From Methanoculleus thermophilus (GTDB taxonomy: Archaea; Halobacteriota; Methanomicrobia; Methanomicrobiales; Methanoculleaceae): a DNA stretch of 64,000 nt. Under the pieces are notes generated by a model. The model ran no database searches. It was not told the origin of the DNA and saw only the letters and a program-made list of their open reading frames with translations. The number at the start of each line of letters is the position of its first letter. The stretch's first letter is position 1. The DNA is taken from positions 124,001-188,000 of the forward strand of contig NZ_BCNX01000003.1 of assembly GCF_001571405.1 (NCBI RefSeq), given 5' to 3'. Below, in pieces: positions 1 through 17,596 of this stretch. The position numbers were made by a program, and so were the translations under genes.

Positions 1-141
1 GGGAGACTGGTATCCTCTGCCGGCCTGGTCAACTACTATGACAGCGAAGACCACCGGGCCATCCATATCAGCCCGAAAGCGGTGATCGCTGTGACCATCG
101 TGACCGGAGTGGCAGTCTTTGTTCTCAATGCCCTCTTCTAA
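1..141 (+). CDS. Protein translocase subunit Sec61-beta (SecG), C-terminal part
   Basis: The reading frame is open from base 1 and stops at TAA 139-141; the start lies outside the window. The 46 visible residues begin with a conserved stretch (LVSSAGLVNYYDSEDHRAI) that is characteristic of the archaeal Sec61-beta cytosolic segment, followed by one hydrophobic membrane helix (AVIAVTIVTGVAVFVLNALF) at the very C-terminus, the tail-anchored layout of this family. It would be the small third subunit of the SecYEG protein-conducting channel. Its stop codon overlaps the stop of the convergent cofE gene by three bases. Confidence 0.85.
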   Translation, partial: GRLVSSAGLVNYYDSEDHRAIHISPKAVIAVTIVTGVAVFVLNALF

Positions 142-893
142 TCCTTTTTGCTCTTCAGTGCCGCCCTGATGATATCCTGCTCGGGCGTGAAGTAGACGGT
201 ATCGTGTCCGGTCCAGGTCCGGCAGTTTCTAAAGACCACCGCAGGGACTCCCTGGTGGCTCTCGCCCATGACGAAGTTTGCGAAGGCTGCTATCTCATCG
301 ACCACTGCTTCCTCGGTGATCTCAAGGACATGGCCGAAGAGATCGGTGTCGCCCCGGTAATCGTTGATCGCAGTCATCCCTGCCCACCCGATAGCAATGC
401 CGGTCTGGCCGCGCCTAAACGACCGACCGCAGGTGTCGGTGATGAGCACCCGGACATTTTTGCCGGTGATGCGGCGGATAGAGTCCCTGATCTCGGCAGC
501 CGCCCCCATGGGATCGGGCGGGAGAATGATGATCCGGCCGTCTTCAACGTTGCTGTGGTCGACACCCGCCCGCACGCCGATATGGCCGGAAGGTAACTCC
601 GATAGGATGAACGGGTACTCAAGCAGGATATCGGCGGACGAGTCCAGCACCGCCTGGACAAAGCGGGGATCTTCCTTGGTCTTTTCCGCGATCCGCACCG
701 CGTCCGCACCGGGGGTGATCGTGGCGAGGTCCCGGGTGAAACCTTTTGACTTTGAGTAGACCGATGAGGCGACGGCGAGGATATCCCCATCCTGAAACGC
801 GACCCGTTCACAGATCAGGGCAGGCAGGTCGTCGCCCTGCTGTATCAGGGGGAGGCCCAAAACTCCGATTACCTGGATATCCATGGAATTCAT
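138..893 (-). CDS. cofE: Coenzyme F420-0:L-glutamate ligase CofE
   Basis: This 251-residue protein matches the usual length and sequence of CofE, the GTP-dependent ligase that adds gamma-linked glutamates to F420-0 to make coenzyme F420, the hydride carrier of methanogenesis. Recognisable blocks are the N-terminal GLPLIQQGDDL, the SVYSKSKG stretch, the GHIGVRAGVDHSN block, the DTCGRSFRRGQTGIAIG block near residues 153-169, and NDYRGDTDLFG. Two possible starts lie close together, ATG at 893 and ATG at 884; the upstream one is used because neither has a clear ribosome-binding site. The gene converges on Sec61-beta with a stop-codon overlap. Confidence 0.93.
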   Translation of the reverse strand: MNSMDIQVIGVLGLPLIQQGDDLPALICERVAFQDGDILAVASSVYSKSKGFTRDLATITPGADAVRIAEKTKEDPRFVQAVLDSSADILLEYPFILSELPSGHIGVRAGVDHSNVEDGRIIILPPDPMGAAAEIRDSIRRITGKNVRVLITDTCGRSFRRGQTGIAIGWAGMTAINDYRGDTDLFGHVLEITEEAVVDEIAAFANFVMGESHQGVPAVVFRNCRTWTGHDTVYFTPEQDIIRAALKSKKD

Positions 894-2461: not shown

Positions 2462-2572
2462 CCTGATCGCCCTCCCCCTCCTCGCGATCACTCTTATGCA
2501 TAGCGGCAAATTCCTCTCCTTTCGCCCCCGGCACCAGGTGCCCGGGCCCCCCTGTTCAATCCTGCACAACCG

Positions 2573-2580
2573 TTATATGG
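2573..2580 (+). promoter_or_regulatory. TATA box for the first FAD/Rieske gene
   Basis: TTATATGG lies about 33 bases upstream of ATG 2613, with a strong GAGGAGG ribosome-binding site at 2601-2607. The paralogous gene at 4262 has a matching GTTATATG element. Confidence 0.5.
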
Positions 2581-2612
2581 GTGTCGCGGCACCCACCAGC
2601 GAGGAGGCCCAT

Positions 2613-4261: not shown

Positions 4262-5800
4262 ATGGAGTATAGACCGGGTACGGGATATAGCCTGCCGGGC
4301 AGGCACGAGTCGTTCTGGATGGCCACTACGGCGCAGACATCTCATCCCCCTCTGTCGGGGGATCTGGAGACCGATGTCGCGGTGATCGGCGGCGGGATTG
4401 TCGGGATCACCACCGCCCTCCTGCTCAAGCGGGCAGGCTACATGGTCACCGTGATCGAGGCGGACCGGATCGCCCGGGGGGTGACGGGCCGCACGACGGC
4501 AAAGATCACGTCGCTCCACCGGCTCATCTATGCCGAGCTCATCGATCGGTTCGGGAGCAGCCAGGCGAAGCAGTATGCCGACGCGAACCAGGCGGCGATC
4601 GATACGATAGCATCGTTTGTCCGGGAATACGATATCCCCTGCGACTTTGTCAGGAAACCGGCCTACACCTATGCGGAGTCTGAAGAGGAGCGTGATCTGG
4701 TCGCGGCGGAAGCGGATGCGGCACGAAGCCTCGGCCTTCCGGCGACGTTTGTGGAGGACGTCCCGTTGCCGGCCAGAACCTACGGGGCGGTACGGTTCTC
4801 AGACCAGGCGCAGTTCCATCCATTAAGATACCTCCTGTACCTTGCTTCCCTGATTCCGGGCGACGGGAGCCGGATCTTTGAGAAGACCCGGGCGCTCGAG
4901 GTCCAGGACGGCGGCGGATGGTGTGCGATCCGGACGGAGAACGGGATTATCACGTCCCGGGCGGTGGTCCTTGCGACCCACTACCCCTTCTACGACAGCC
5001 CCGGGTTCTACTTTGCCCGGATGGAGCCCTCGCGCTCCTACGTAATCGGGGCCCGGATCGACGAGCCGTTCCCGGAGGGAATGTTCATCAACGCCGATGG
5101 GCCGGTCCACTCATGGCGCTCACAGCCCGCCGAAGGGGGTGAACTCGTGCTCGTCGGCGGCATGGAGCACCGGACCGGCGAGCAGGTGGACACACGGAGG
5201 CACTACCGCGACCTTGAGGCCTACGCACGGTCGGTCTACCCGATACGGTCCGTCGACTACCGCTGGTCAACGCAGGACTACATCACCATCGACGGCGTCC
5301 CGTACATCGGACCGCTCGCCGACGGCCACGAGAACGTCTACATCGCGACCGGATTCCGGAAGTGGGGGATGACCAACGGCACCGCGGCCGCGATGATCCT
5401 TGCCGATATGATCCTGGGGCGCGCGAACCCCTGGGCGGAAGTCTATGCCCCCGACCGGTTCAAGCCCGCAGCATCGGCCCGGCGGTTCCTCGTCCATAAC
5501 ATCGAGGTGGCCGAGAGATACATCGGCGGCGTGATATCCCGGCCGGCCGGGGATCTCCGGGACGTTGCACCCGGCGAGGGGAGAATCCTGATGATCGAGG
5601 GCGAGAAGACCGGGATCTTTCGAGACCACGAGGGGCGGGTCCACGCGGTCAATCCCACCTGCAGCCATCTCGGGTGCATCGTCGCCTGGAACAGCGCCGA
5701 AGAGACCTGGGACTGCCCCTGCCATGGTTCCCGCTACGATCCCGACGGGAAGGTGATCCACGGTCCGGCGGTGAGGGATCTTAAGCCGCGGGGTGGGTGA
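4262..5800 (+). CDS. FAD-dependent oxidoreductase with C-terminal Rieske domain, copy 2
   Basis: This 512-residue protein has the same architecture as the gene immediately upstream: N-terminal GGGIVG FAD motif and C-terminal Rieske ligands CSHLGC and CPCHGSRYD. Long segments are nearly identical to copy 1, for example TTAKITSLHRLIYAELIDRF against TTAKITSLHRLVYRYLIDRF, and RYLLYLASLIPGDGS against NYLLLLAGHLPGEGS. The most divergent part is the linker between the two domains, around residues 400-440. GGAGG at 4249-4253 supports the start. It is a tandem duplicate whose two members may have split substrates or electron partners; the donor and acceptor are unknown. Confidence 0.85.
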   Translation: MEYRPGTGYSLPGRHESFWMATTAQTSHPPLSGDLETDVAVIGGGIVGITTALLLKRAGYMVTVIEADRIARGVTGRTTAKITSLHRLIYAELIDRFGSSQAKQYADANQAAIDTIASFVREYDIPCDFVRKPAYTYAESEEERDLVAAEADAARSLGLPATFVEDVPLPARTYGAVRFSDQAQFHPLRYLLYLASLIPGDGSRIFEKTRALEVQDGGGWCAIRTENGIITSRAVVLATHYPFYDSPGFYFARMEPSRSYVIGARIDEPFPEGMFINADGPVHSWRSQPAEGGELVLVGGMEHRTGEQVDTRRHYRDLEAYARSVYPIRSVDYRWSTQDYITIDGVPYIGPLADGHENVYIATGFRKWGMTNGTAAAMILADMILGRANPWAEVYAPDRFKPAASARRFLVHNIEVAERYIGGVISRPAGDLRDVAPGEGRILMIEGEKTGIFRDHEGRVHAVNPTCSHLGCIVAWNSAEETWDCPCHGSRYDPDGKVIHGPAVRDLKPRGG

Positions 5801-6249
5801 GAGGGCAAGAATATTGAGAGATGACGGAGGAGAGACCCAACTCGCACCAGTCCACTCACACTTGATCTTCGGTTTGCCTGGCACGGATTTCGTGGGGGTA
5901 TCGCCACGACTGCCCGCCCCCTTTAGGGGTCGGGAGGAGCGCGAAGCGCGGGTGGTGGGGGTTACAGAGATCTATCACTCCGTGGAGACAGGGGAGGGGG
6001 GATGCTCCCCCCGCACCTAGCGGTGCTTGAACTCCGGGCGTTCCGCCCGTCGTTCCTCGAAACTCATCGAGTTTCTCAAGCTCCGCTCTTTCAGAGCGTC
6101 GCACTCCCCTGAAACCCTCCCCCATATGGCGATTGCCCCCCGGTCCACTGCACCGGGCGGTGCTCCTGCCCCGTCCTTGGCAAAATGCTGCAACTAAAAA
6201 CCTTCGCCGATCACTACATGGATTCATTGTGGCATCAGAAAACTCCGGA
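5801..6249. other. Gene-free region holding seven short hairpins (5917-6098)
   Basis: No gene is seen here. Seven perfect inverted repeats with loops of three to five bases follow one another: CCCC/GGGG 5918-5929, GCGC-GAA-GCGC 5939-5949, GGGGGG/CCCCCC 5996-6012, GCACC-TAGC-GGTGC 6013-6026, CGGGCG-TTC-CGCCCG 6035-6049, GAAACTC-ATC-GAGTTTC 6059-6075 and CGCTCT-TTC-AGAGCG 6084-6098. Each stem has a different sequence, so this is not a simple duplication. It may be a structured RNA or a mosaic repeat element. Confidence 0.6.
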
Positions 6250-6256
6250 TGGATAA

Positions 6257-6264
6257 TTATAAAT
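6257..6264 (+). promoter_or_regulatory. TATA box, leaderless promoter of the DUF1922 gene
   Basis: TTATAAAT ends 28 bases before ATG 6292 with no ribosome-binding site between, which is the spacing of a leaderless archaeal transcript. Confidence 0.6.
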
Positions 6265-6291
6265 CCCGCCACCCGCACACTCCCATTAACC

Positions 6292-6558
6292 ATGTACCTC
6301 GTCATCCGCTGCCCGGGTTGCCGAACCTTCACCTATGTGGATCGCTATCAGCGCTGGAGGCTCTGTCCGATGTGTGGTGAGGCGATCAACGTAGGACAGG
6401 TGCCCGTTTACCTGGATGCAGATGACTTTTTGGATGCAGAGCAGGTGGTGAAGCAGCTCGAGGCGTATCTGCACCGGACCGGGAAAAAAGACTTGACGGA
6501 TCAGGATATCCAGCAGTTGCGGACCCAATACGCCAGATGGGTGAAAAACCGGACCTGA
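6292..6558 (+). CDS. DUF1922 zinc-ribbon protein
   Basis: This 88-residue protein starts with MYLVIRCPGCRTFTYVDRYQ and has a second knuckle CPMC about 17 residues on, giving a C-x2-C...C-x2-C zinc ribbon. The following acidic, helical segment (YLDADDFLDAEQVVKQLEAY) fits the small archaeal DUF1922 family. Its function is unknown. The start is fixed by a TATA box 28-35 bases upstream and no leader. Its stop codon directly abuts the stop of the convergent 49-residue zinc-ribbon gene that ends the Eha-Fwd operon, so the two small zinc proteins lie tail to tail. Confidence 0.8.
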   Translation: MYLVIRCPGCRTFTYVDRYQRWRLCPMCGEAINVGQVPVYLDADDFLDAEQVVKQLEAYLHRTGKKDLTDQDIQQLRTQYARWVKNRT

Positions 6559-6708
6559 TCACCAGAGATGCCCGCAACCGGGACAGAGTATACTCACTCT
6601 TCTACCGCAGTGCGAACAGTAAAGCCCCGTACGCTCGTTGTATGTCAGAGGCCTTCCGCATTTCTTACAGTGAATCGGGGCCTCGAACCCACACTCATGC
6701 CTGACCAT
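6559..6708 (-). CDS. 49-residue double zinc-knuckle protein, last gene of the Eha-Fwd operon
   Basis: Reading the minus strand from ATG 6706-6708 to TGA 6559-6561 gives 49 residues starting MVRHECGFEAPIHCKKCGRP and continuing with CSHCGRR and CPGCGHLW. There are three C-x2-C knuckles (CKKC, CSHC, CPGC) plus one early Cys, a small double zinc ribbon. The ATG overlaps the fwdC stop by one base (TGATG), the same junction as fwdA/fwdC, which argues for translational coupling and a real gene. The product is not recognised; the place suggests an accessory of formylmethanofuran dehydrogenase or a regulator. It is short enough to be missed by standard gene finding. Confidence 0.7.
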   Translation of the reverse strand: MVRHECGFEAPIHCKKCGRPLTYNERTGLYCSHCGRRVSILCPGCGHLW

Positions 6709-7478
6709 CAGTCCAGATATTTGAAGTCCTTCACAAAAAGATTTCCTTTTCCCCGGTTTGCTATATCCCCGGTAAAGTGGATAAGCGTCCGTCCTTCGTG
6801 CTGAACCACGCCGACCTTTTTAAAGGTAGGGAGCATCTCCTGTGCGGTTCCATAGACGTAACAGGACCCTTCTTTCATGTTCGCACCGGGACGGCTGCAA
6901 TTTCCATGAACAATCACCGTGCCGCCGTGCATCTCCGCTCCGGCCATATCCCCGGCATCGCCGTGCACGATCACCGTGCCCCCGGCGATATGCTCTGCGA
7001 GGAAATCACCGGCACGGCCGAAGACCTCCACGGTTCCGCCGGTCATCCCCTTTCTGCCGCCGCGATACCCCGACGCGCAGTAGTCGGCGGCGTCGCCCCG
7101 GCAGATGATGGTCCCGCCCGTCATCTCCCGCCCGAGCCAGCCGTCGGCGTTGCCGTGGATCTCGATCGTTCCGCCGCTCATGAAGTTGCCGCAGTGCATC
7201 CCGATATTGCCGAGGACCGTGATCTTCCCGCCGTCCATGTACTCGCCGATCCTCTTTAAGCGGAACGTATCAGCCCCAGATATGACAACCTCGACGTCTT
7301 CCGCCCGGTCGGCATCGCCCTCCACCGAGACCGTGAAGACCTCGTTAAGTCCAAGCTCCCGGTTCCCTCGCCAGACAGAAAGATCGGTGCCTGATAGGAA
7401 GTTCTTTGGGACGATCGCCTCCGCCTCGATGGGAATGAACGACTTTGCAGCAGGTTTCATCGCAAGTGTGACCTTCAT
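6708..7478 (-). CDS. fwdC: Formylmethanofuran dehydrogenase subunit C
   Basis: The 256-residue protein carries the tandem G-x2-G-x3-G repeats that form the right-handed beta-helix of FwdC/FmdC and the GltB C-terminal domain; examples are GGTIEIHGNADGWLG, GGTVEVFGRAGDFLAEH and GGTVIVHGDAGDMAGAE between about residues 100 and 200. In the enzyme this subunit supports the formyl-transfer half of the complex, which fixes CO2 on methanofuran with electrons from ferredoxin. The start overlaps the fwdA stop (TGATG) and its own stop overlaps the next small gene. Tungsten and molybdenum isoenzymes cannot be separated from this subunit alone. Confidence 0.93.
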   Translation of the reverse strand: MKVTLAMKPAAKSFIPIEAEAIVPKNFLSGTDLSVWRGNRELGLNEVFTVSVEGDADRAEDVEVVISGADTFRLKRIGEYMDGGKITVLGNIGMHCGNFMSGGTIEIHGNADGWLGREMTGGTIICRGDAADYCASGYRGGRKGMTGGTVEVFGRAGDFLAEHIAGGTVIVHGDAGDMAGAEMHGGTVIVHGNCSRPGANMKEGSCYVYGTAQEMLPTFKKVGVVQHEGRTLIHFTGDIANRGKGNLFVKDFKYLD

Positions 7479-9175
7479 ATCTCCGTCTCCGTCTCAATGC
7501 ACCGGTTCCGGTTCAGGTACTCCTCCTGCACGGGGTAGTTTCGCATCCGGACGGTGTAGTAGCGATTGAAATTCTCGACGAACTCCTGGTCCTTCTCCAT
7601 ATCATAGGCCTCGGAGACCTTCGGTTTAACCCAGAACGTTGCGTTGCTCCCATCGACCACGCACTCGCCCCTCCGGGCGACGACCCTGCCCCGCTTAATG
7701 GTGTACTCGGTCTGGCTGAACGCCTCGATCACCTTCTGATAATCGACCGCAGGATCGACCTCATCGATCCGGATCGGATAGATGGCGACGTCGGCGTAGG
7801 CCCCCGGAGCGAGATGCCCTTTCCCGATATCCTGAATACCGAGCGCCTTCGCCTGGCCGGCCCGGGTCATCACCGCGATCTCGTACCAGTCGAGTTCCCG
7901 CTCGATCGCCGGGAGGGGCACCCGTGACTCGGTCTCCGGGTGGACCGTCGCGAACTCGGCATCGCGGTACTTCTTGCTCATCAGGAGAGCAATGATCTCC
8001 GGATATCGGACGAACGGAGCGCCGTTCGGGTTATCCGTCGTGAGCAGGCACTGCCACGGGCTCTTGGTGAGGAGCGCGAGTTCGAGGCCGATCGCCCACA
8101 TGATCGAATTGACCAGGTTCTTGCGCCGGTAGACGACCGGGATGATCCCTGAGCCGGTCTCGAGCTCCACGTCGTGGTTGCTCCACTTGTCGTGGTGGAG
8201 GCGGTAGAGGTTGAACTCCATCGGCCCGTCGGCGGTCATCGTCGTCGTTCGGCCAAATAGGATCTGCCCCATGTCGATGACGATCTGCGGGCGCATGTTG
8301 ACAAAGTTTGCAATGGGCTCGCTCTTCGAGCAGAAGTCCTTCCAGTCCGAACCGCCGTAGGCATGGTACTGGACGTGCGTCGCATACAGCGTCTGCCTTT
8401 TCGGATTCAGGTCTGGGACGAGCCCGAGCGAACCGAGCGTGCAGGTGTAGTTCCCCGGCGTCCCCAGGTTGTTGCAGTGGAGATGGACTGAGTGCGGGAG
8501 GTGGAGGAGTTCGTTCGCCTCGATGACCGACCGGATGATCTCCGCAGGCGTCACCTCAAAATACGGCACCGGATCACGGATGCACGTGACGTTCTTGCCC
8601 CACTGCCAGGCCTCGGTGCCGCCGGGATTCGTGAGCTTGACGGCAAACCCCTTGACCGCCCGGAGCGTCCAGGCGATGATGGCCGCGACCCGTTTTACGT
8701 CGCCGTCCCGGATCGCCTCCATGATCGCCCAATTTCCGTCGAAGAGGGTGTTTGCCATCATGTCCTGCAGCGGCGTGTAGGTAAACTCCTCGTGGGTGTG
8801 CCGGGCCTCGAGCGGCGCCATAGCGCCCTCGAGCAGGGTGGTGTAGCCCATCACGCTGTAGCGGTAACTGTTGCCGTAGGTGGTCGGGACGCTGTAGCCG
8901 GAGGTGGCGTGCATCGGTCCGTGCCGGGGCGTCCTTCCGGCCCGCATATCTTCCGGGCTCATGTAGCGCCCGAAGTTCACCTTCGTCCCGCAGACGTGGG
9001 TGTGCGAGTCAATCCCGCCTGGCAGGGTGAGCATCCCGCGGGCATCGATCACCTCCGCCGCATCGCTCACCTCCTCGACGATCCTGCCGTCGCGGATGGC
9101 GATATCCATCACTTCGGCGTTGATCCCCCGGAGCGGATCGATCACGCAGGCGTTCTTTACGAGGAGTTCGCTCAT
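7475..9175 (-). CDS. fwdA: Formylmethanofuran dehydrogenase subunit A (amidohydrolase)
   Basis: This 566-residue protein is the metal-dependent amidohydrolase subunit that condenses formate with methanofuran. The metal-site motif GGIDSHTHVCG lies near residues 53-63, the lysine expected to be carboxylated is in GFAVKLTNPGG, further metal ligands are in HLHCNNLG, and the catalytic Asp region is LTTDNPNGAPF. Length and motif order match FwdA/FmdA. It overlaps fwdB upstream by four bases and fwdC downstream by four bases, so all subunits are probably made from one coupled message. Confidence 0.95.
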   Translation of the reverse strand: MSELLVKNACVIDPLRGINAEVMDIAIRDGRIVEEVSDAAEVIDARGMLTLPGGIDSHTHVCGTKVNFGRYMSPEDMRAGRTPRHGPMHATSGYSVPTTYGNSYRYSVMGYTTLLEGAMAPLEARHTHEEFTYTPLQDMMANTLFDGNWAIMEAIRDGDVKRVAAIIAWTLRAVKGFAVKLTNPGGTEAWQWGKNVTCIRDPVPYFEVTPAEIIRSVIEANELLHLPHSVHLHCNNLGTPGNYTCTLGSLGLVPDLNPKRQTLYATHVQYHAYGGSDWKDFCSKSEPIANFVNMRPQIVIDMGQILFGRTTTMTADGPMEFNLYRLHHDKWSNHDVELETGSGIIPVVYRRKNLVNSIMWAIGLELALLTKSPWQCLLTTDNPNGAPFVRYPEIIALLMSKKYRDAEFATVHPETESRVPLPAIERELDWYEIAVMTRAGQAKALGIQDIGKGHLAPGAYADVAIYPIRIDEVDPAVDYQKVIEAFSQTEYTIKRGRVVARRGECVVDGSNATFWVKPKVSEAYDMEKDQEFVENFNRYYTVRMRNYPVQEEYLNRNRCIETETEI

Positions 9176-10461
9176 CGCGCTCTCGCCTCCTGCATCAGCG
9201 TGTACATCTTTAAGAGGACCTCCCGATCAGAGGGGTAGACGGTGGAGATGACCTTCCTCGTCCGGATGGGCACCCCGTCCATCCGGTAAGCCGTCCCTTC
9301 AGCATCGATCCCGGTCACCGCAACGGGGATCTGGACGTTGCAGAACGCGGTCGTGGCATTCGGGTAGGGATCGAGCTGGACCACCGGGATCTCCGCGAGG
9401 TGCTCGAGGCACTTCCGCGGGAAGTGGGCGGCCGGGTCGCTCCCGACGATCAGCGCCGCGTCGCACTCTTTCCGGGCCAGGATGTCCACGGCCGTCGTCT
9501 CCCCGGGGTTGTAGAAGGCGATTCCCCGGGAGAAATCGATTCCGAAGGGGTAGCCGGTCATCCAGGTGTTCACTTCGTTCGACCCGTAGACGTTGTAGTG
9601 GCCCCGCATCGCCGAGATGGTGAACTTCGTGTGCCGGTTGAGTTCCGAGACGAGTTCGATGGCGTTTCGGATGTTCTTGTACTTCCCGCGGGTCATCGTG
9701 ATCCCGAGCCCGAAGTAGACTGCCCCGAACTTTGCGGACTTGCAGAGGTTCGCTACCCGGATGAGTTGCTCCCGGGTGACGCCCGCGACCGTCCGCGGGA
9801 TCGTCTCGGTCTTTCCGCGGACGATCGCACGGAGCGCCGAGAGAACCGCGTAGTCCCCACCGGGCTTGATACGCACGAATTCGTCGGCGATCTCCGCGGT
9901 CTCGGTCTTCCTGACGTCGACGACGATCACCTTCCGGTCGCGGAAGGCGTTCTCAAGGAAGAAGCCCTCCGCGTAGCGCGTGTAGCGGGAGAGATGGCGG
10001 GGATGGGCATCGATAGGGTTTGCGCCCCAGTAGACCACCAGATCTGCCCGGTTCTTCACCACCCCAAGGGTGCAGCCCGGGTGCCCGACTTCCTGGATGG
10101 CGAGGATCGACGGACCGTGGCAGACCGAGGAGGTATTGTCGATGACGCCCCGGACGAGTTCGGCCATATGCACCCCCACGCACTGCGCCTCCCCATGCGT
10201 GCCGCTCCACCCATACAGGAGCGGGCGCTCTGCCGCAAGAAGCATATCGGTGGCATACCGGACGGCCTCATCGTAGGTGATATCCTTCCAGGTCTTTCCA
10301 TCGCGCATGATGGGGTTTTTCAGCCTCTTTTCGCCCATGAACTTCTTTGTCCCGAGTTCGCAGGCGTTCGTGACGGCGACGACACGGTCCCCCTCCACTT
10401 CAACCTCGATGTCGTCGCAGAGACATCCGCAGAAGGGGCAGACCGCATCCTTAACGATCAT
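9172..10461 (-). CDS. fwdB: Formylmethanofuran dehydrogenase subunit B (catalytic, W/Mo)
   Basis: The 429-residue protein is the molybdopterin-type subunit that reduces CO2 to formate. The N-terminal CPFCGCLCDDIEV (Cys8, 11, 15) with CELG near residue 34 binds a [4Fe-4S] cluster. The metal ligand is the Cys in SSVCHGPS at residue 114; some homologs carry selenocysteine there, but here it is an ordinary Cys codon. LYGWSGTHGEAQ and GSDPAAHFPRK are further family blocks. It overlaps fwdD by 11 bases and fwdA by four. Confidence 0.95.
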   Translation of the reverse strand: MIVKDAVCPFCGCLCDDIEVEVEGDRVVAVTNACELGTKKFMGEKRLKNPIMRDGKTWKDITYDEAVRYATDMLLAAERPLLYGWSGTHGEAQCVGVHMAELVRGVIDNTSSVCHGPSILAIQEVGHPGCTLGVVKNRADLVVYWGANPIDAHPRHLSRYTRYAEGFFLENAFRDRKVIVVDVRKTETAEIADEFVRIKPGGDYAVLSALRAIVRGKTETIPRTVAGVTREQLIRVANLCKSAKFGAVYFGLGITMTRGKYKNIRNAIELVSELNRHTKFTISAMRGHYNVYGSNEVNTWMTGYPFGIDFSRGIAFYNPGETTAVDILARKECDAALIVGSDPAAHFPRKCLEHLAEIPVVQLDPYPNATTAFCNVQIPVAVTGIDAEGTAYRMDGVPIRTRKVISTVYPSDREVLLKMYTLMQEARAR

Positions 10462-10840
10462 AAGCGAGACCTCCCAGTTCTTCCATCAGTTCATGAACCG
10501 TCTTCGGCTCTTCATCCGTCGGTTCGATCTCCACCCGGTGCGACTTGAAATCCGGCATCCCGGTGGAGTGGGTCTCGGCAGAGATGATGTGGTTTGCATA
10601 CGGTCCATACGGGACAAAGACGGTTCCTGCCTCCACGTCGGGCGACGCGACCGCCCTCATGACAACAGACCCACAGGGACCGGTCACCCGGACAGCATCC
10701 CCGTCATCGAGCCCGAGTTCCATCATATCGAACTCGTGCATGAAGCAGGTGGATGTCTCCGCCGCGTATTCGGCTGATGTCTTGTTCTCGACGGTCACGC
10801 CCTGGTTCACCGTCCGCCCGGTGTTCATGAGAAAGATCAT
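10451..10840 (-). CDS. fwdD: Formylmethanofuran dehydrogenase subunit D
   Basis: This 129-residue protein is the molydopterin dinucleotide-binding domain that completes the FwdB active site; in some methanogens the two are fused. It begins MIFLMNTGRTVNQGV, has the beta-barrel block LGLDDGDAVRVTGPCGSVV, and the conserved FVPYGPYANHII motif. The C-terminus overlaps the start of fwdB by 11 bases and its start overlaps the polyferredoxin stop by four, fixing its place in the operon. Confidence 0.93.
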   Translation of the reverse strand: MIFLMNTGRTVNQGVTVENKTSAEYAAETSTCFMHEFDMMELGLDDGDAVRVTGPCGSVVMRAVASPDVEAGTVFVPYGPYANHIISAETHSTGMPDFKSHRVEIEPTDEEPKTVHELMEELGGLAYDR

Positions 10841-11442
10841 ACTTCCGCCTCCTCCTGCACTCCTTCGACCATCCGGGCGACCCGGATCGCAGAGTTCGGG
10901 CAGTGTGTCTCGCAGGTCTTACACCCCGTGCACTTCTCCTCGTGGAGGATTCTCACCCGTCCGCCCTCAATTCGCATGATAACCTCGTCGCTCGCGGACG
11001 TCCCCGTCGCTGCAAGTTGGAGATCGATCTGTCGGTTGACCGGGCAGGAGACACAGCAGTTCCCGCACCGCATGCAGAGGGTATCGTCGACCTCGAGGTG
11101 ATACCACGAGGAGAACGCCGTCCCGTCACGCCGGGCGATATCGAGGATCCGCCCGCTCGCAAGGACGCCTTCAGGACACGCCTCGACGCAGAGGCCGCAC
11201 CGGATGCAGTGACCGGGGTAGACCTCCGGCTCCCATTGGTCCTGCCGGCGGAGAACCGCTATGGCATCGGGTGCGGGGCAGATCATCATGCAGGAGAAAC
11301 AGCCCGTGCACTCCTTCTCTGTCCGGGTCGGGTAGCCCTTGAAGTAAGACGGGGTCTCGAGCGGCGCAGTCTTTGCGAAGAAGAACTTCTTCACCCATTC
11401 AGGCCGGAGGAACTCCCGCACGTAGTAGACGATCGATCGCAT
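10837..11442 (-). CDS. Polyferredoxin with four [4Fe-4S] motifs, linking Eha and Fwd genes
   Basis: The 201-residue protein has four C-x2-C-x2-C-x3-C motifs: CTGCFSCMMICP near residue 45, CIRCGLCVEACP near 80, CMRCGNCCVSCP near 123 and CTGCKTCETHCP near 172. The N-terminus (YVREFLRPEWVKKFFF) is rich in aromatic and basic residues and could dock on the membrane hydrogenase. It sits between ehaO and fwdD with a four-base overlap to fwdD, so it is well placed to carry electrons from the Eha hydrogenase to formylmethanofuran dehydrogenase. It resembles the EhaP/EhaQ or EhbK-type polyferredoxins, but has fewer clusters than the Methanothermobacter Eha ones; the exact subunit letter is uncertain. 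Confidence 0.85.
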   Translation of the reverse strand: MRSIVYYVREFLRPEWVKKFFFAKTAPLETPSYFKGYPTRTEKECTGCFSCMMICPAPDAIAVLRRQDQWEPEVYPGHCIRCGLCVEACPEGVLASGRILDIARRDGTAFSSWYHLEVDDTLCMRCGNCCVSCPVNRQIDLQLAATGTSASDEVIMRIEGGRVRILHEEKCTGCKTCETHCPNSAIRVARMVEGVQEEAEV

Positions 11443-11446
11443 CTCC

Positions 11447-12535
11447 TCACCTCTCGTTGCACGCGATACAGGGGTCGCTGCTGATGAACGTCGACGTCAC
11501 ATCGGCAATCGAGGTGGCATTGATGATCATCGAGTGGGCGCAGGCCTCGATGTTCATGATCGAGGGCGTTCTGATGGCGATGTCGAGCACCCGGCCGTAT
11601 TCGTCGGTCTTGATGGTGTAGACGAGCTCGCCCCGGGGTGCTTCGCCGCTGTGCGAGGCGGAACCTGCCTTGCAGAGGCCGCCGCCCCGGATGGGACCTT
11701 TTGGGAGCTCGCGTATGCACTTCCGGATCAGGTCGATGCTCTGGACGATCTCCTGGAACCTGACCATGACCCGGGCGAAGTTGTCGCCCTCGGTCCGGGT
11801 TATCTGCGTAAACCCGAGTTCCCGGTAGGTCGGGTGCCGGAGGCGCAGGTCGCAGTCCTCGACGCCGCTCGCCCGGGCCGTGGGGCCGACGGTGTGGGCC
11901 CGGATGGCCTCCTCGCGGCTCATGAACCCTATTCCTTTGCTCCGGAGCGCGATCAGCGGCCCGGTCTCGAAGATCCTGGTATACCGCTTCACCTCGTCCT
12001 CCACCTTCGCGAGGTCGGCAAGCATCCGCTCGGCGTCCTCCGGCAGGAGGTCGAACCGGACCCCGCCCGGGATCATGTAGGCGGTGTTGATCCGCGAGCC
12101 CGTCAGCCGTTCCAGGTTGTCAAGCACCGTCTCCCGGGTATTCAAGAGGTACATCGCGAGCGTCTCGTGCTCGATCGTGTAGCAGTAGGAGAAGTTCGCG
12201 AGGATGTGGCTTGCCATCCGGTCGAGCTCGTTTGCGATGACCCGGAGGTAAGCCGCCCGCGGCGGAACCGTGATCTCGCTGATCTTCTCCATCGTCTCGA
12301 TGAAGACCATGTTATGGATGACCGAGCAGATCCCGCAGACGCGCTCCGCAAGGAACATCACCTCCTGCCAGGGCCGCCCCCTCATGATCCGCTCGATCCC
12401 TTTCTTCATGTATCCGAGTTCGACCTCGGCCCTGAGCACCCGTTCGCCCGCCGTCTCGCACTTGATGCGGGCGGGCTCTTTCCAGCACGGATGCATCGGG
12501 CCGAGGGGTATGGATACGTCGACGGTCTTCTTCAT
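11447..12535 (-). CDS. ehaO: Energy-converting hydrogenase A, large (NiFe) subunit EhaO
   Basis: This 362-residue protein is the catalytic NiFe subunit. The N-terminal nickel motif is RVCGICS (Cys67, Cys70) and the C-terminal motif is DPCIACNER (Cys356, Cys359). The chain ends three residues after the last Cys, at the position where other large subunits are cut by a maturation protease, so no C-terminal extension is present and no processing should be needed. The sequence is of the membrane-bound, complex-I-related group 4 hydrogenases. It overlaps ehaN by four bases. HypD, encoded at 41.7 kb, is a maturation factor for this type of site. Confidence 0.9.
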   Translation of the reverse strand: MKKTVDVSIPLGPMHPCWKEPARIKCETAGERVLRAEVELGYMKKGIERIMRGRPWQEVMFLAERVCGICSVIHNMVFIETMEKISEITVPPRAAYLRVIANELDRMASHILANFSYCYTIEHETLAMYLLNTRETVLDNLERLTGSRINTAYMIPGGVRFDLLPEDAERMLADLAKVEDEVKRYTRIFETGPLIALRSKGIGFMSREEAIRAHTVGPTARASGVEDCDLRLRHPTYRELGFTQITRTEGDNFARVMVRFQEIVQSIDLIRKCIRELPKGPIRGGGLCKAGSASHSGEAPRGELVYTIKTDEYGRVLDIAIRTPSIMNIEACAHSMIINATSIADVTSTFISSDPCIACNER

Positions 12536-12990
12536 CGCTGCTTCTCCTCGTAGTCTTTGAATATCAGCGGCGCAACCGAGAGTATGGCGGAGAGGATCTC
12601 TGTCGGGCGGGGCGGGCAGCCCGGCACCGATGCCGCAATTGGTATATAGTTCTCGACGGGTGGTGAAGTTAAGCTACCCTTTCGGGCATAGACACACCCG
12701 GAGATCGGACAATTCCCGATGGCAACAGCCACTTTCGGCTCCGGGATCTTATCCCAGATATCACGAAGTTTGTCTACCCATTGCGGGGTTACAGAGCCGA
12801 TAACCAGGAGAACATCGGCCTCTCTCGGGTTGTTGTGGACGTAGATACCGTATTGTTCGATATCGTAGCGGGGTGCAAGGCAGGCGAGCACCTCGATGTC
12901 GCAGCCGTTGCACGACCCGACGTCGACGTAACTGACGTGGATCGACCTCGAGCGGACGACATTCTTGATCTCCTGGAGAATATTCCTCAT
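12532..12990 (-). CDS. ehaN: Energy-converting hydrogenase A, small subunit EhaN
   Basis: This 152-residue protein is the electron-transferring small subunit, homologous to NuoB. Its proximal [4Fe-4S] ligands are visible as SCNGCDIE (Cys27, Cys30), GNCPISGC (Cys94 or Cys99) and GCPPRP (Cys125). It is much shorter than uptake hydrogenase small subunits, as usual for group 4 enzymes. It is overlapped by four bases on both sides by ehaM and ehaO. Confidence 0.9.
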   Translation of the reverse strand: MRNILQEIKNVVRSRSIHVSYVDVGSCNGCDIEVLACLAPRYDIEQYGIYVHNNPREADVLLVIGSVTPQWVDKLRDIWDKIPEPKVAVAIGNCPISGCVYARKGSLTSPPVENYIPIAASVPGCPPRPTEILSAILSVAPLIFKDYEEKQR

Positions 12991-13370
12991 GAGAGGATCG
13001 CCTCCCGGATCCGTTCTCGGCCTCTTGCGACGGCCTCATCGAAGGATCCGTTCTCTATCATCGCTTGTGTATCGTTGTAAATTTCCTGCATTCTCTCTGT
13101 ATCCACAAGGGGTATGAATCGGGTGAAGAGTTCGCACCCGAGTTCTTTTGCGACCGCATCGCCCTTGTCCGCGTACTCAAGTCCCATCTCCCACCGGGAC
13201 TCGAGGTTCTCGAGCAGGGCCATATCGAAGTTCTGGATCAGCACCCTCCGGAGTTTCGCGTCCTTCACCCCGAGACGCTCTGCAATCGCCCGGACGGTCT
13301 CGTCATGCCGCGTGCTCGTGAGGATGGTGTACTTCATCTGACGGAGGTCTTTTTCGTAGAGGAACTTCAT
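12987..13370 (-). CDS. ehaM: Energy-converting hydrogenase A subunit M (DUF1959)
   Basis: This 127-residue hydrophilic, mostly helical protein has no cysteine pairs for a metal site. Its sequence (ERLGVKDAKLRRVLIQNFD, then CELFTRFIPLVDTERMQEIY) fits the DUF1959 family, which is the EhaM subunit in Methanothermobacter. It lies directly before ehaN, as expected. A second Met at residue 12 is an alternative start. Its role in the complex is not established. Confidence 0.75.
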   Translation of the reverse strand: MKFLYEKDLRQMKYTILTSTRHDETVRAIAERLGVKDAKLRRVLIQNFDMALLENLESRWEMGLEYADKGDAVAKELGCELFTRFIPLVDTERMQEIYNDTQAMIENGSFDEAVARGRERIREAILS

Positions 13371-13618
13371 GCGAGCACCCCGAAACTATGCGCTATCGCG
13401 TAGGCGAGGAATCCGAGCACCATCACCCAGAGCAGCCCCATCTCGTAGCGTTTCAGAGCGAGTTCGTCGTGAACCAGGGTAAGCGCCGTGGCGATGACGA
13501 GCAGGACCACACCCGCGAGTGTCTGGTCGGCCACGCTCCAGTTCTGGGCGGCCTGGGCGAGGAAGACCGCCACGTAGAAGGCCGCTCCTGCCGTGAGGAG
13601 AAGGCGTATCCTACTCAT
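13367..13618 (-). CDS. Small Eha membrane subunit (EhaL/EhaK-like)
   Basis: The 83-residue protein has three hydrophobic segments (LLLTAGAAFYVAVFLAQAA, LAGVVLLVIATALTLV and GLLWVMVLGFLAYAIAHSF), with a short polar loop HDELALKRYEMG. It is the only gene between ehaJ and ehaM, where Methanothermobacter has ehaK and ehaL; by position and size it is most like EhaL. It overlaps its neighbours by four bases on each side. Confidence 0.65.
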   Translation of the reverse strand: MSRIRLLLTAGAAFYVAVFLAQAAQNWSVADQTLAGVVLLVIATALTLVHDELALKRYEMGLLWVMVLGFLAYAIAHSFGVLA

Positions 13619-14463
13619 CCCATGATCACCCCGAGGACTATGATGTAGATGACGAGCGCGCCCGTCACGAGACTCTGTATGGTAACCGTGTCGTAGGGCG
13701 AGAGCATCGGAGAGACCGCACAGACGAACGAGAGCGAGACGAGGATTAGGAGCATCAGGAGTAACGTGAGACCCAGCGGCAGAGCTCCGACGAAGAGGAG
13801 GACGAACGCGTAGAGGAGCACGTAGGTCTTGAGAGCGAACCCCACCTCAAGCCCGGCGCGCCAGACTCCGAAGTGCTCGGTCATGTTTCCGCTCACGATC
13901 TCTTTTGCCTCGATGATCGAGAACGGGCCGTAATGCATCTTAGAGAGGATCACGAGATACAGCGCCACGGCCGCCGGGAACGCCGCGGTGAAGAGGAGCG
14001 GGCCGTGGACCTGCTGGTAGGCCGCGATCTCCGCGATCGAGAGCGAGCCGGTAAAGAGGTAGATCACGGCGACGGTGGCGAGGAGCGGCAGCTCCGAGGC
14101 TGCCGATATGACCGACCGGATGGCCCCGAACTTCGCGTAGGGCGAGCCCGAGGAGAGGCCGGTCCCGTGCTCCACGATCTTGTGGAGGAGATAGACCGCA
14201 AAGAGGAGGAGGAGGCTTCCCCCGGAGAGGAGGACAAAGAGGGCTGCGCTCCAGATGCCGATAGCCACAAAGACTACCGCGACAAAGAGGGTCTGGCTTG
14301 CCGTCTTCGGTACCCAGGTCTCTTTGAAGGAGAACTTCAGGGTATGCAGGATCTCCTGCCAGATCGGCGGCCCCGGCCGTCCCTGGACTCTTGCGATGAT
14401 CTTCCGGTGGATGCCGTGGAAGAGCAGGCCGACGAAGGTTGCAAAGAGCAGGTATTCGATCAT
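13615..14463 (-). CDS. ehaJ: Energy-converting hydrogenase A subunit J (NuoH-like)
   Basis: This 282-residue integral membrane protein with about eight helices belongs to the NuoH/EchB family that links the redox module to the ion channel. The loop KIIARVQGRPGPPIWQEIL near residue 24 is the family signature (R-x-Q-x-R-x-GP), and FSIIEAKEIVSGNMTEHFG is the second conserved acidic loop that contacts the small subunit. It is placed as in the Methanothermobacter eha operon. Confidence 0.88.
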   Translation of the reverse strand: MIEYLLFATFVGLLFHGIHRKIIARVQGRPGPPIWQEILHTLKFSFKETWVPKTASQTLFVAVVFVAIGIWSAALFVLLSGGSLLLLFAVYLLHKIVEHGTGLSSGSPYAKFGAIRSVISAASELPLLATVAVIYLFTGSLSIAEIAAYQQVHGPLLFTAAFPAAVALYLVILSKMHYGPFSIIEAKEIVSGNMTEHFGVWRAGLEVGFALKTYVLLYAFVLLFVGALPLGLTLLLMLLILVSLSFVCAVSPMLSPYDTVTIQSLVTGALVIYIIVLGVIMG

Positions 14464-14464
14464 G

Positions 14465-14668
14465 TCAGTATCCTATGAACGGGATATCCCCATCCTTGGT
14501 TTTCGCGTTCCACCACAGTGCTATGAAGACGACGAAGGCGGGGAAGGCGATGACCGCGAGAATCTGCGCGGCCCAGACCGGGAGGTAGCCGGCGGCCGCG
14601 AGGGGCTCGCCTGCTATCCCGATACCCGCCGCCGCAAGACCGGTGATCAGTGCTGTCTGTTTCTTCAT
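14465..14668 (-). CDS. ehaI: Energy-converting hydrogenase A subunit I
   Basis: The 67-residue protein has two membrane helices and a short charged C-terminus (WNAKTKDGDIPFIGY). It is called EhaI from its place between ehaH and ehaJ and its size; the sequence itself is too short to be decisive. It is one base from ehaJ and six from ehaH. Confidence 0.65.
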   Translation of the reverse strand: MKKQTALITGLAAAGIGIAGEPLAAAGYLPVWAAQILAVIAFPAFVVFIALWWNAKTKDGDIPFIGY

Positions 14669-14674
14669 GGCTTA

Positions 14675-15352
14675 TCACATCGATATGACGATCTCCGCCA
14701 CCCGCAGGAAGAGGAGGAGCGAACTGACGTGGACCATCAGGATGAACGGCGCTCCCTGTGCCCTCGTGATCTCCGCCTTTGCCACATAGAACGGTGCCAT
14801 GCCCTCTCCCATGACGCCGAGGACCAGGAACGCCTTCGCGACGAGGGGGACCGTCACCGCGTCGGTGAAGAGTTCCCACATGCTCAGCGTGCCGGTGCTC
14901 GCGGCGATGATCGCCGCGCCGCCAAAGAGCGGTACAGTGGCGAGCATCGCGACGATTCCGTACTGAAACGCGGCGTTTAAGACATGCCGGTTCCGGTAGG
15001 CCGCGACGATGCCGATGTTCGTGATCCCGACAAGCGACGCAAAGAGGGTGAAGTTGAAGACGTCCCCGGTCGCCATTGCCCCGAGCGTGGCCAGACCACA
15101 GGCGATCGCCATGAATCGCTGGAACCGCATGAGACCGGGGTCGACCTCCTTTGCGTAGTAGGCGTCCCCGCCGAAGGCTATGTCCATCTGTCTTTCGGGC
15201 CTGCTCACGATGACGAGCAGCGTGAAGAGGAGGGCGAAGGCGAAGAGCGCCGCGGTGTAGGGGCTGAAGTAGGCGACGATGTCGCCGAACTCCAGCACGA
15301 AGAGTTCCGGCCCGCCGATGTTCGGGGTGGGGAGGTTAAACATCCGGACCAC
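14675..15352 (-). CDS. ehaH: Energy-converting hydrogenase A subunit H (antiporter-like)
   Basis: The 225-residue protein has about six membrane helices and carries conserved charged residues within helices (FGGDAYYAKEVDPGLMRF, MGEGMAPFYVAKAEI), as expected for a shortened relative of the NuoL/M/N antiporter-like subunits that move ions. It is roughly half the length of a full antiporter subunit. It overlaps ehaG by 17 bases. Confidence 0.8.
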   Translation of the reverse strand: MVRMFNLPTPNIGGPELFVLEFGDIVAYFSPYTAALFAFALLFTLLVIVSRPERQMDIAFGGDAYYAKEVDPGLMRFQRFMAIACGLATLGAMATGDVFNFTLFASLVGITNIGIVAAYRNRHVLNAAFQYGIVAMLATVPLFGGAAIIAASTGTLSMWELFTDAVTVPLVAKAFLVLGVMGEGMAPFYVAKAEITRAQGAPFILMVHVSSLLLFLRVAEIVISM

Positions 15353-15944
15353 CTCTCCGCATCGTTCCCACGAGGGACATCTTTGCCATCACCTTGATGA
15401 GGATCGCACCGCCCGCCATCATCACCCCAAAGAACCAGTACGCGGGGAGGAACATGAAGACGAAGAACGCCCCGATCCAGATCGCCCACGCATAGCCGCT
15501 CACGGTCTCGATCAACTCGAACTGCTCGGCATGCCCCTTGCACATGAAGTAGAAGACCGCCCCCACCGCAGCGACCGCCCCGCCGGTGAAGCCCGAGAGG
15601 ATGATGCCGTAGGCGACCAGGATCAGCGCGAGGATGCCCGGAGCGCTGTCCATGACCTCGATCCGGAACGCCGGTCCCTTCGGAGCCTGGAGCCCTTCTC
15701 TCGTGATGTAGACCTCGGAGACCGCCATCAGTTCGGATATCCCGACGACGAGCCCCGGGAGGATGAGCGCCTCGGCAAGGTCGGTGGCGATGAGCGCGAT
15801 CACGACGAGCCCGAGGACCTCCGCGAGGTCGGTGAGGAGGACCCGGTGCAGGTCGTCTTTCTCCCGGACGATGGCTGTAAACCCGATGATGAGCCCGATC
15901 ACGGCGACGGCGAGCCCGAACGAGTAGGTGGCGGCGTCCATCAT
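15336..15944 (-). CDS. ehaG: Energy-converting hydrogenase A subunit G
   Basis: The 202-residue membrane protein has about five helices. The loop FTAIVREKDDLHRVLLTDLAE after the first helix is typical of EhaG, with TREGLQAPKGPAFRIEVMD in the middle loop. It starts at the last base of ehaF and overlaps ehaH by 17 bases. Its individual role in the ion-translocating module is unknown. Confidence 0.75.
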   Translation of the reverse strand: MMDAATYSFGLAVAVIGLIIGFTAIVREKDDLHRVLLTDLAEVLGLVVIALIATDLAEALILPGLVVGISELMAVSEVYITREGLQAPKGPAFRIEVMDSAPGILALILVAYGIILSGFTGGAVAAVGAVFYFMCKGHAEQFELIETVSGYAWAIWIGAFFVFMFLPAYWFFGVMMAGGAILIKVMAKMSLVGTMRRGGPDV

Positions 15945-16411
15945 CAGGACTCCTCCCTCCGGAAGAGGAAACTCGCGATCGCAAACGCTACAAAGAGGAT
16001 GCTCGTCTCGACGACCGTATCGAACCCCCGGGTGTTGTAGAGGATCTCATCGATGATGCCGCCGGGGTGGGCGACGATCGTCGTCCCCATATGGAGGGTG
16101 GTATCGGCGAGCCACTGGCTGAACGGGGTGAGGTAGGCCGTCACGTAGCCTGCGTAGGGGGAGTTCTCCGGGTACTGCGACTTCACGGGAGTTGTTCCGA
16201 ACGGCACGCCGCCCCGGTCGTAGGGGTCGAGAGGACTTTCCGGGTTGAGGGTCTTCGGGTAGAGCTGGTCCTCGTTGTAGGTGATGGACGGCAGGGTGAT
16301 GAGGCCGAAGACGAGCACGATCACGAAGAGGAGCGCATACAGCCCGGTGAGGTTCTCAAGCCTTGAGAGCGCCGCCGATATCCGGGTAATGATCGATCGG
16401 TTCGGCGTCAT
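15944..16411 (-). CDS. ehaF: Energy-converting hydrogenase A subunit F
   Basis: The 155-residue protein has one N-terminal helix (LYALLFVIVLVFGLITLP), a long polar segment of about 75 residues that should lie outside the membrane (LYPKTLNPESPLDPYDRGG) and a C-terminal helix (SILFVAFAIASFLFR). This layout and the motif NTRGFDTVVET match EhaF and the related MnhB/MbhF-type subunits. Confidence 0.75.
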   Translation of the reverse strand: MTPNRSIITRISAALSRLENLTGLYALLFVIVLVFGLITLPSITYNEDQLYPKTLNPESPLDPYDRGGVPFGTTPVKSQYPENSPYAGYVTAYLTPFSQWLADTTLHMGTTIVAHPGGIIDEILYNTRGFDTVVETSILFVAFAIASFLFRREES

Positions 16412-16647
16412 CGTGCGGCCTCCTTGCGTTCGATGACCCGCATGAGAACGAAGGTCGAGATTGCCGTCACGGCGATGAAGGTCATGATAGCGAGCATCTC
16501 GTCGTAGGCGAGCATGATCAGGAGAAGCCCGAATGCGGGGATCTCAAGATTGATCAGCCTCGTAAGGTAGGTCTTCTCGCGCGGGAACCCGGCGGCGATC
16601 ACCCCGATGATGAGGATGATGCACCCGAGGATGAACTCAGGCGTCAC
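16408..16647 (-). CDS. ehaE: Energy-converting hydrogenase A subunit E
   Basis: The 79-residue protein has three hydrophobic segments with the conserved loop AAGFPREKTYLTRLINLEIP and the helix FGLLLIMLAYDEMLAIMTF, an MrpC/NuoK-like arrangement with an acidic residue in a helix. It is named from position and size within the eha series. Confidence 0.7.
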   Translation of the reverse strand: MTPEFILGCIILIIGVIAAGFPREKTYLTRLINLEIPAFGLLLIMLAYDEMLAIMTFIAVTAISTFVLMRVIERKEAAR

Positions 16648-16882
16648 GAATATCCCTCCTCATGAGCGGCAGGATGATGATGGTCGAGATGGGGATGATC
16701 AGGCTGACGACGATCGCGACGTCCAGGTAACCGCGGTCGACGACGAACGGGATGACGCCGCCGTAGATGATCCCGATTGAGATCAACTTTTTGAAGGGGT
16801 CCTGCTGGAGGTAGGTCCCAAGGGCGCCGATGAGCGCCACGGACGCGAAGAGGATGATGATGATCTCATCCACGCCGCTCAC
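16637..16882 (-). CDS. ehaD: Energy-converting hydrogenase A subunit D
   Basis: The 81-residue protein has three hydrophobic segments; LQQDPFKKLISIGIIYGGVI is the conserved loop between helix one and two, again NuoK/MrpC-like. It overlaps ehaC by 17 bases and ehaE by 11. The letter is assigned from gene order. Confidence 0.7.
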   Translation of the reverse strand: MSGVDEIIIILFASVALIGALGTYLQQDPFKKLISIGIIYGGVIPFVVDRGYLDVAIVVSLIIPISTIIILPLMRRDIRDA

Positions 16883-17108
16883 CCCCTGCGTACGTGCTTG
16901 CGATGGCGTTCGACTCGAGCGTCGACCCGACGAAGTAGGCCGCGGCCGCGACGAGGGCGAGCGGGTGGTCGATCAGCAGGACGAGCGTACCCGCGACGGC
17001 GAAGTTCATGACGTTCACGTAGAGAAACTTCCTGCCGGTGTTTTTCTCAAGCGTTGCCCGGATGACGGCAAAGAGCGCAATCGCGGCCACGACGTAGAGC
17101 GCTATCAT
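16866..17108 (-). CDS. ehaC: Energy-converting hydrogenase A subunit C
   Basis: The 80-residue protein has three predicted helices and the loop RATLEKNTGRKFLYVNVMNF between helix one and two. The C-terminal tail is polar (IASTYAGGERRG). It is assigned as EhaC from gene order and size. It overlaps ehaB by four bases. Confidence 0.65.
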   Translation of the reverse strand: MIALYVVAAIALFAVIRATLEKNTGRKFLYVNVMNFAVAGTLVLLIDHPLALVAAAAYFVGSTLESNAIASTYAGGERRG

Positions 17109-17596
17109 TGCCGGACCCTCCAGAGCCGCGTAAGGAGTCTGCTCGCGTGGACGTGCGAGAGCCCCTGGATGGTGAGGATGGCGATGACCATCCCGGCGAT
17201 GAAGTCCGTTGCGGCAAATCCGATCTGAGTGAAGCCATAGACGACTAACGTGGCGAGTACCGCCCCGGTGGTCCCGGCGTAACCGGGGTCATGGCAGATG
17301 CGGTTGCCGATATACACCATCAGGGCTGCGGCGAGCCCTCCGGGGATGCCGGCGACGTAGACGCCGCAGGCGGCGAGGAGGGTCCCTGCCGAGGCGTCGG
17401 GAGAGCAGACGATATTCCCCATCATGGTGCCGCCGGGAAGAGCGCCGCCGCCGGCCTCGATATCGCGCGCAATGGCCGACGCTCCGCTGACACCCCCCGC
17501 TTCTGGTAATTTGAAGAGAATATCGATAGTTACGAAGAGTATCCAGCTGATAGCGGCTGCAGCCAGGATGTGGAGGATCTCACCCAGCATTATCAC
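17105..17596 (-). CDS. ehaB: Energy-converting hydrogenase A subunit B, first gene of the operon
   Basis: The 163-residue membrane protein is rich in glycine and alanine. A central block (GGALPGGTMMGNIVCSPDAS) and DPGYAGTTGAVLATLVVYGF recall the hydrophobic MtrD/MtrE-like style. It is called EhaB because it precedes ehaC; no separate ehaA is seen upstream before the tRNA. The start is GTG 17596 or ATG 17590. A TATA-like element lies about 30 bases upstream, so the message is nearly leaderless. Confidence 0.6.
   Translation of the reverse strand: MIMLGEILHILAAAAISWILFVTIDILFKLPEAGGVSGASAIARDIEAGGGALPGGTMMGNIVCSPDASAGTLLAACGVYVAGIPGGLAAALMVYIGNRICHDPGYAGTTGAVLATLVVYGFTQIGFAATDFIAGMVIAILTIQGLSHVHASRLLTRLWRVRQ

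Follow-up and report, generated by a model that had tools for sequence, protein, structure and literature searches.

The minus-strand run of eha and fwd genes in the window, by which we mean the whole stretch of 64,000 nucleotides of Methanoculleus thermophilus DNA analysed here, ends in a gene for a microprotein of 49 amino acids, which is conserved across a methanogen order and is predicted to form a double zinc ribbon. We propose that this zinc protein is an independent, free-standing adaptor for RNA or for another protein and no stoichiometric subunit of formylmethanofuran dehydrogenase (Fwd) or of the Eha-type energy-converting hydrogenase (Eha). As a whole, this proposal, which draws on comparisons of sequences, is given a probability of about 45%; that the gene is real and independent, and its product no obligatory part of Fwd or Eha, is very probable.

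The position at the end of the eha-fwd run suggests a missing part of the enzyme, whereas natural deletions and decayed copies of fwdC show that gene and enzyme are separate. The comparison defines a family of small proteins whose ligands are invariant and which most of the sampled genomes of a single methanogen order encode; the gene and its convergent DUF1922 partner offer a clear target for small-protein work in hydrogenotrophic methanogens.

A 49-residue zinc-ribbon gene and its family

The zinc protein carries three CxxC knuckles (C14/C17, C31/C34 and C42/C45) in addition to H4 and C6. The first-pass annotation, which named no strand, had described a 49-residue frame with three C-x2-C knuckles; the frame is present at 6559..6708 and lies on the minus strand, and reading the plus strand of the same interval does not give the zinc protein. 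The proposed start of the gene inside the fwdC stop codon, through TGATG, was borne out (6710..6706), as was its position behind all the eha and fwd genes: it closes a run of minus-strand genes that extends from about 17596 down to 6559 and in which every junction is an overlap or a gap of 4 nt. The junction between fwdA and fwdC, claimed to be an identical TGATG, is actually ATGA, an overlap of 4 nt (7478..7475). Furthermore, the Eha-type membrane genes of the run match PF09879-PF09882, and NuoB/D-like hydrogenase genes are also found in it. The stop codons of the zinc gene and of the DUF1922 gene on the opposite strand touch back to back (TGATCA). No Rfam matches were found at 5800-7600, and a scan of 6100-7100 for bacterial-type terminators was negative, which carries little weight for archaea.

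Table 1. Features of the window around the zinc gene.
Feature	Position	Strand	Basis
Zinc gene, 49-aa double-zinc-ribbon microprotein (HxC, then three CxxC; W49)	6708..6559	-	ORF, non-chance, conserved candidate ligands, purifying selection
TGATG stop-start overlap, fwdC / zinc gene	6710..6706	-	zinc gene starts at the A of the fwdC TGA
DUF1922 (PF09082) zinc-ribbon gene, 88 aa from the ATG at 6292	6292..6558	+	35.8 bits, cut-off 30
fwdC, formylmethanofuran dehydrogenase subunit C	6708..7478	-	TIGR03122, 236 bits
fwdA, joined to fwdC by ATGA	7475..9175	-	TIGR03121
fwdB	9172..10461	-	TIGR03129
fwdD	10451..10840	-	NF042908, under its cut-off, E 6.5e-32
Polyferredoxin	10837..11442	-	FwdF-like and NuoI-like 4Fe-4S matches
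Eha-type energy-converting hydrogenase genes (large, small and membrane subunits)	11447..17596	-	profile matches
cofE	138-893		

Several other elements flank these genes. The non-coding interval before the DUF1922 gene (5840-6190) contains a dispersed repeat with 37 matches in its own genome, itself included, most copies being 75-90% identical over 25-160 bases. Two adjoining genes on the plus strand (2445-4160 and 4262-5800) encode FAD oxidoreductases (DAO), each with a C-terminal Rieske domain, and apparently arose by tandem duplication. Upstream of the Eha genes, at 18141-18777 on the minus strand, lies a pair of HepT-like and nucleotidyltransferase (MNT-like) genes, likely a pair of the toxin-antitoxin type.

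A frame of this size could be a chance ORF or a decayed remnant, a reading which the small size, and nothing else, favours. The window contains 463 ORFs between 30 and 80 aa long, and the zinc gene alone among them has at least three CxxC motifs; in 60 first-order Markov shuffles, such ORFs averaged 0.017 per window. When 199 sampled genomes of the order were searched at the protein level, 131 matched at E<=1e-3; one (G190), a partial match inside a 392-codon frame of another protein, was dropped, leaving orthologues in 130 genomes. Residues H4, C6, G7, C14, C17, C31, C34, C42, C45 and W49 are kept in 130/130, and with them eight candidate metal ligands in the four pairs H4/C6, C14/C17, C31/C34 and C42/C45. 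Counted from the aligned start, the proteins have 49 residues in 119 cases and 50 in 11, those of family f6 having one extra N-terminal residue.

In the window's own family of genomes (f1), dN/dS is 0.063 over 390 pairs, sampled from 31 of the 39 loci, and the variable sites fall on codon positions 1, 2 and 3 in the proportion 18/16/47, so that 47 of 81 are third positions. The zinc family thus evolves under strong purifying selection. The shuffle counts, the dN/dS and the invariant, order-wide ligands reject a chance origin, the probability of which is negligible; as far as sequence allows, this is a genuine gene.

Behind fwdC, the frame and its cysteines are kept in all 39 gene-bearing f1 genomes, the named loci of which belong to Methanoculleus and relatives; in one further f1 genome (G026) the gene was absent among the matches of the order search. 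When a profile was run against 246 phylum genomes, strong matches came from genomes of the order only; no full-length relative was found outside it, where nine genomes gave partial matches of 24-27 bits. The family therefore appears, as far as sampled, to be confined to the methanogen order of the window.

Linkage with fwd and eha across the order

Gene neighbourhoods were read at one locus per genome in 130 genomes, and loci with less than 250 bases on the side needed were dropped (2 upstream and 2 downstream). Among the 128 loci then available, the upstream neighbour is fwdC in 70, the polyferredoxin of the hydrogenase side in 9, Pelota in 10, fwdA without fwdC in 1 and something else in 38. 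The fwdC position is characteristic of four of the six families, with 39/39 loci in f1, 13/23 in f2, 7/10 in f3 and 11/12 in f4, compared with 0/20 in f5 and 0/24 in f6. A stop-start overlap of 1 nt (TGATG or TAATG) occurs in 61 of the 70 fwdC-adjacent loci, one of them with only a stub of fwdC (L061), and thus translation of the zinc gene is likely coupled to that of fwdC in those lineages. Behind fwdC, the overlap would tie translation of the zinc gene to ribosomes finishing fwdC, so that the level of zinc protein would track the synthesis of Fwd. In f5 and f6, the gene would be expressed without fwdC. In our explanation, the zinc gene would thus hitch-hike on the expression of eha-fwd in f1 to f4.

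Two of the 70 fwdC neighbours are dead remnants beside an intact zinc gene, and each of the two genomes has another fwdC elsewhere. At L061 (genome G072), the last 34 codons of fwdC are left, followed by the zinc gene and DUF1922, a unit which lies about 190 bases from a tRNA-Leu gene. The sequence is 80-83% identical to the window (83% for DUF1922), though G072 belongs to another family; the unit was likely acquired by horizontal transfer, and the arrangement looks as if the pair had moved as one. At L083 (G066), the frameshifted fwdC extends across three reading frames and contains stops, in a draft genome in which sequencing error is possible. The converse is seen in four loci of a group within f6 (g10), where fwdB, fwdA and fwdC are directly followed by the convergent DUF1922 gene, with the zinc gene missing between them; the Eha marker is retained in each of these four genomes.

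Counts over whole genomes give a similar separation. In the 132 high-quality genomes of the order, fwdC is present in 132, the Eha marker PF09879 in 104 and the zinc gene in 83; zinc gene and marker occur together in 79, the zinc gene without the marker in 4, the marker without the zinc gene in 25 and neither in 24. In one of the 4 (G082), an Eha large-subunit gene of 73% identity was found, which raises the joint count to 80, the marker having probably been lost to a contig break; in the other three (G041, G072 and G184), which are near-complete, a search for Eha-type genes found only paralogues of 33-40%. The marker is thus present in 79/83 genomes with the zinc gene and in 25/49 without it, counts which ignore kinship, and this excess speaks for some link with Eha or for shared ancestry.

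The first-pass annotation had considered an overlooked subunit, assembly factor or translational regulator of the complex. What stands of this is a conserved metal-ribbon gene, located behind fwdC in four of six families; a role as subunit or dedicated factor is not supported, given that fwdC is found in 132/132 genomes and the zinc gene in 83/132, and that the latter is intact beside two dead copies of fwdC. Two forms of the idea were tried and rejected, namely an Fwd subunit present wherever the complex is, against which the same counts and the four out of four g10 loci with fwdBAC alone can be set, and an Eha subunit following Eha, in view of the 25 Eha genomes without the zinc gene and the 4 zinc-gene genomes without the marker. 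Compared with models of the Fwd subunits and others, the zinc protein gave mostly matches to zinc-ribbon models and no Fwd model among them. Since fwdBAC and Eha occur without the zinc gene, and the zinc gene in genomes where no Eha-type gene was found and beside a dead fwdC, a subunit role is unsupported. Natural absences, dead remnants and co-occurrence together lead us to reject an obligatory part of either complex; such comparison of genomes excludes it while leaving room for a regulator.

A regulator of this kind would be an accessory, non-essential protein, translated in step with FwdC, binding Fwd or Eha and tuning the activity or assembly of the complex. The 1-nt overlap, the 9 further loci directly behind the Eha-side polyferredoxin and the Eha excess would all be expected of it, and a precedent exists in MtrR, a protein of 49 aa which modulates a methanogenesis complex (PMC13370731). 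We nevertheless hold it to be rather unlikely, as g10 retains fwdBAC without the zinc gene, 25 high-quality genomes have Eha and 49/132 have fwdC without it, the gene persists beside a dead fwdC and a fwdC stub, and linkage with fwd is nil throughout f5 and f6. The Eha excess also weighs against a free-standing adaptor, though here it is confounded by shared ancestry.

The convergent DUF1922 gene

While the upstream gene varies between loci, the convergent DUF1922 gene (PF09082) is mostly constant. It lies within 600 bases downstream of the zinc gene in 121/128 loci, and in 109 of the 122 loci measured, no more than 15 nt separate the stop codons of the two genes. Further downstream, cofE is found in 46 of the 88 loci with enough sequence. 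By sequence, the closest solved structure to the DUF1922 protein of the window is 1gh9 (MTH1184; E 0.00019), and a literature search for DUF1922 found nothing.

The zinc protein and the DUF1922 protein could accordingly form a functional pair, either as a hetero-complex or through mutual control via the overlapping 3' ends of their messages. The convergent adjacency and the tight spacing point in this direction, and the pair outlasts both moves of the upstream operon and the likely transfer at L061. However, in 20/20 loci picked from genomes without a known adjacent zinc gene, DUF1922 has no zinc gene beside it (in one, G060, the zinc gene is located elsewhere), and the pair is therefore not obligatory. 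The zinc gene, in turn, lacks a DUF1922 gene within 600 bases in 7/128 loci, and tight convergent spacing may persist merely because few breaks are tolerated. We regard a functional pair as rather unlikely, to the same degree as an Fwd/Eha regulator. A bolder suggestion is that the tail-to-tail pair, specific to the order, acts as a small metal- or redox-responsive regulator, of which one half, in four of six families, would be stop-start-coupled to the last eha-fwd gene. Its amount would then report how many ribosomes pass through the message of the enzyme that fixes CO2 first in methanogenesis, and in the remaining families the regulator would be expressed independently; this we find very doubtful.

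Predicted fold, the ribosome and known small zinc proteins

The free-standing adaptor that we prefer would be built as a nested double ribbon similar to that of PriA. Two zinc ions would be held in an outer site formed by H4/C6 with C42/C45 and an inner site formed by C14/C17 with C31/C34; we infer these sites from the order of the ligand pairs, which fits the likeness to PriA. NCBIfam models of PriA match the zinc protein weakly over residues 2-46 (E 0.003). AlphaFold2, run with 25 close sequences, returned one model with a mean pLDDT of 78.9 and four with 49-54. Aligned with this single model of moderate confidence by VIA-align 2, PriA (residues ~432-482) covers model residues 1..47 with Z 3.5, an rmsd of 3.3 and 46 aligned residues; RPB9-type ribbons reach up to Z 3.8, values of Z which may mean a common arrangement only. 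A Z of at least 2 was obtained for 38/367 chains, and a Z of 5 for none. Foldseek gave no match at E<=0.001, the best having E 0.97; its list includes the aS21-type chains 9qf4_Ay, 9o17_AZ and 6ydh at low scores, none of which is among the VIA-align rows listed.

The target of such an adaptor, a less certain point than the fold, would be either RNA, most probably at the ribosome or close to it, or another protein, with the DUF1922 protein perhaps acting alongside. C1 domains aside, the PDB entries that match best by sequence are zinc-ribbon proteins of the aS21 type from the archaeal 30S subunit, with E 7e-4 for the profile and 0.005 for the single protein. In one family (f5), Pelota lies directly upstream of the zinc gene in 10/20 loci. 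The f5 locus L111 presents a ribosome-rescue neighbourhood, with the zinc gene behind genes for Pelota and an NFACT protein and an ABCE1-like gene on the other strand. On these PDB matches and the gene neighbourhood of the examined locus we would lean towards RNA or the ribosome. Against an adaptor speaks that the zinc protein resembles aS21 and PriA only weakly and mainly through the spacing of its cysteines, that only one of the five AlphaFold models reaches a pLDDT of 79, with the Foldseek result given above, and that the Pelota neighbourhood, present in half of the loci of one of six families, may be due to chance.

The same matches and neighbourhood could be taken to mean that the zinc protein is itself aS21-like or another ribosomal zinc-ribbon protein particular to the order. 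According to published work, aS21 belongs to the archaeal ribosome and carries two zinc knuckles (PMC7005279); it is also present in the ribosome of Methanosarcina acetivorans (PMC12605026). The zinc protein scores 13.8 bits against NF011481 (aS21 / HVO_2753), the cut-off of which is 61, and a separate aS21-type gene above this cut-off is present in 24/24 genomes of the order examined, and the window's own genome has one; for this reason the window protein is not aS21, and orthology was rejected. A profile comparison of the zinc family with 23 of the 24 aS21 rows, one with a stop being left out, gave a probability of 95%, in an alignment that reflects mainly cysteine spacing. Moreover, a structural ribosomal protein would hardly be absent from 49/132 high-quality genomes, and we judge a ribosomal protein of either kind distinctly improbable.

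A paper of 2009 reported that, in this order, eha adjoins the genes for formylmethanofuran dehydrogenase, in passages that do not mention a zinc protein (PMC2686161). The same report gives 62 order-exclusive clusters, 26 of them hypothetical, among which the zinc family may already be listed. Among the matches listed by a literature search on Methanoculleus and on zinc-ribbon or other small proteins, no title concerned the zinc gene. The family would appear to be new and of a known kind of protein, and its function is a prediction.

Several known systems resemble the zinc protein in part. The cysteine-rich region of PriA, where four pairs of ligands make up nested zinc sites, is like the zinc protein in the aligned span 1..47 and in the weak NCBIfam matches; in contrast to PriA, the zinc protein is stand-alone, begins with an HxC instead of a CxxC pair and has no helicase. 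Double zinc ribbons are also described by Pfam DZR (PF12773), which 36/36 alignment rows of the relatives match at E<=1e-3, whereas the window protein, with 25.6 bits, stays under the gathering cut-off of 27.3. DZR is, to our knowledge, a broad family without a common function. Proteins of the aS21 / HVO_2753 type (NF011481; 9fny_A1, 6sw9_C, 6skf_Az) are likewise archaeal CxxC microproteins, and their first three knuckles align with residues 13-45 of the zinc protein; unlike it, the aS21-type proteins of the order add a fourth knuckle at the C-terminus and lack an N-terminal HxC.

MtrR, which acts on the Mtr complex of Methanosarcina mazei, is a methanogen protein of the same length; it differs in being a membrane-localised regulator, for which the account at hand describes no zinc ribbon, and would be a fair analogue for an accessory regulator of Fwd or Eha (PMC13370731). 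The zinc-finger u-proteins of Haloferax volcanii differ from the zinc family in that the latter has no full-length relative outside its order among the 246 phylum genomes sampled. For proteins of this type, metal content must be measured and not assumed (PMC11241148). As archaeal C(P)XCG microproteins they are nonetheless comparable to the zinc protein, and their deletions often result in condition-dependent phenotypes (PMC6562870).
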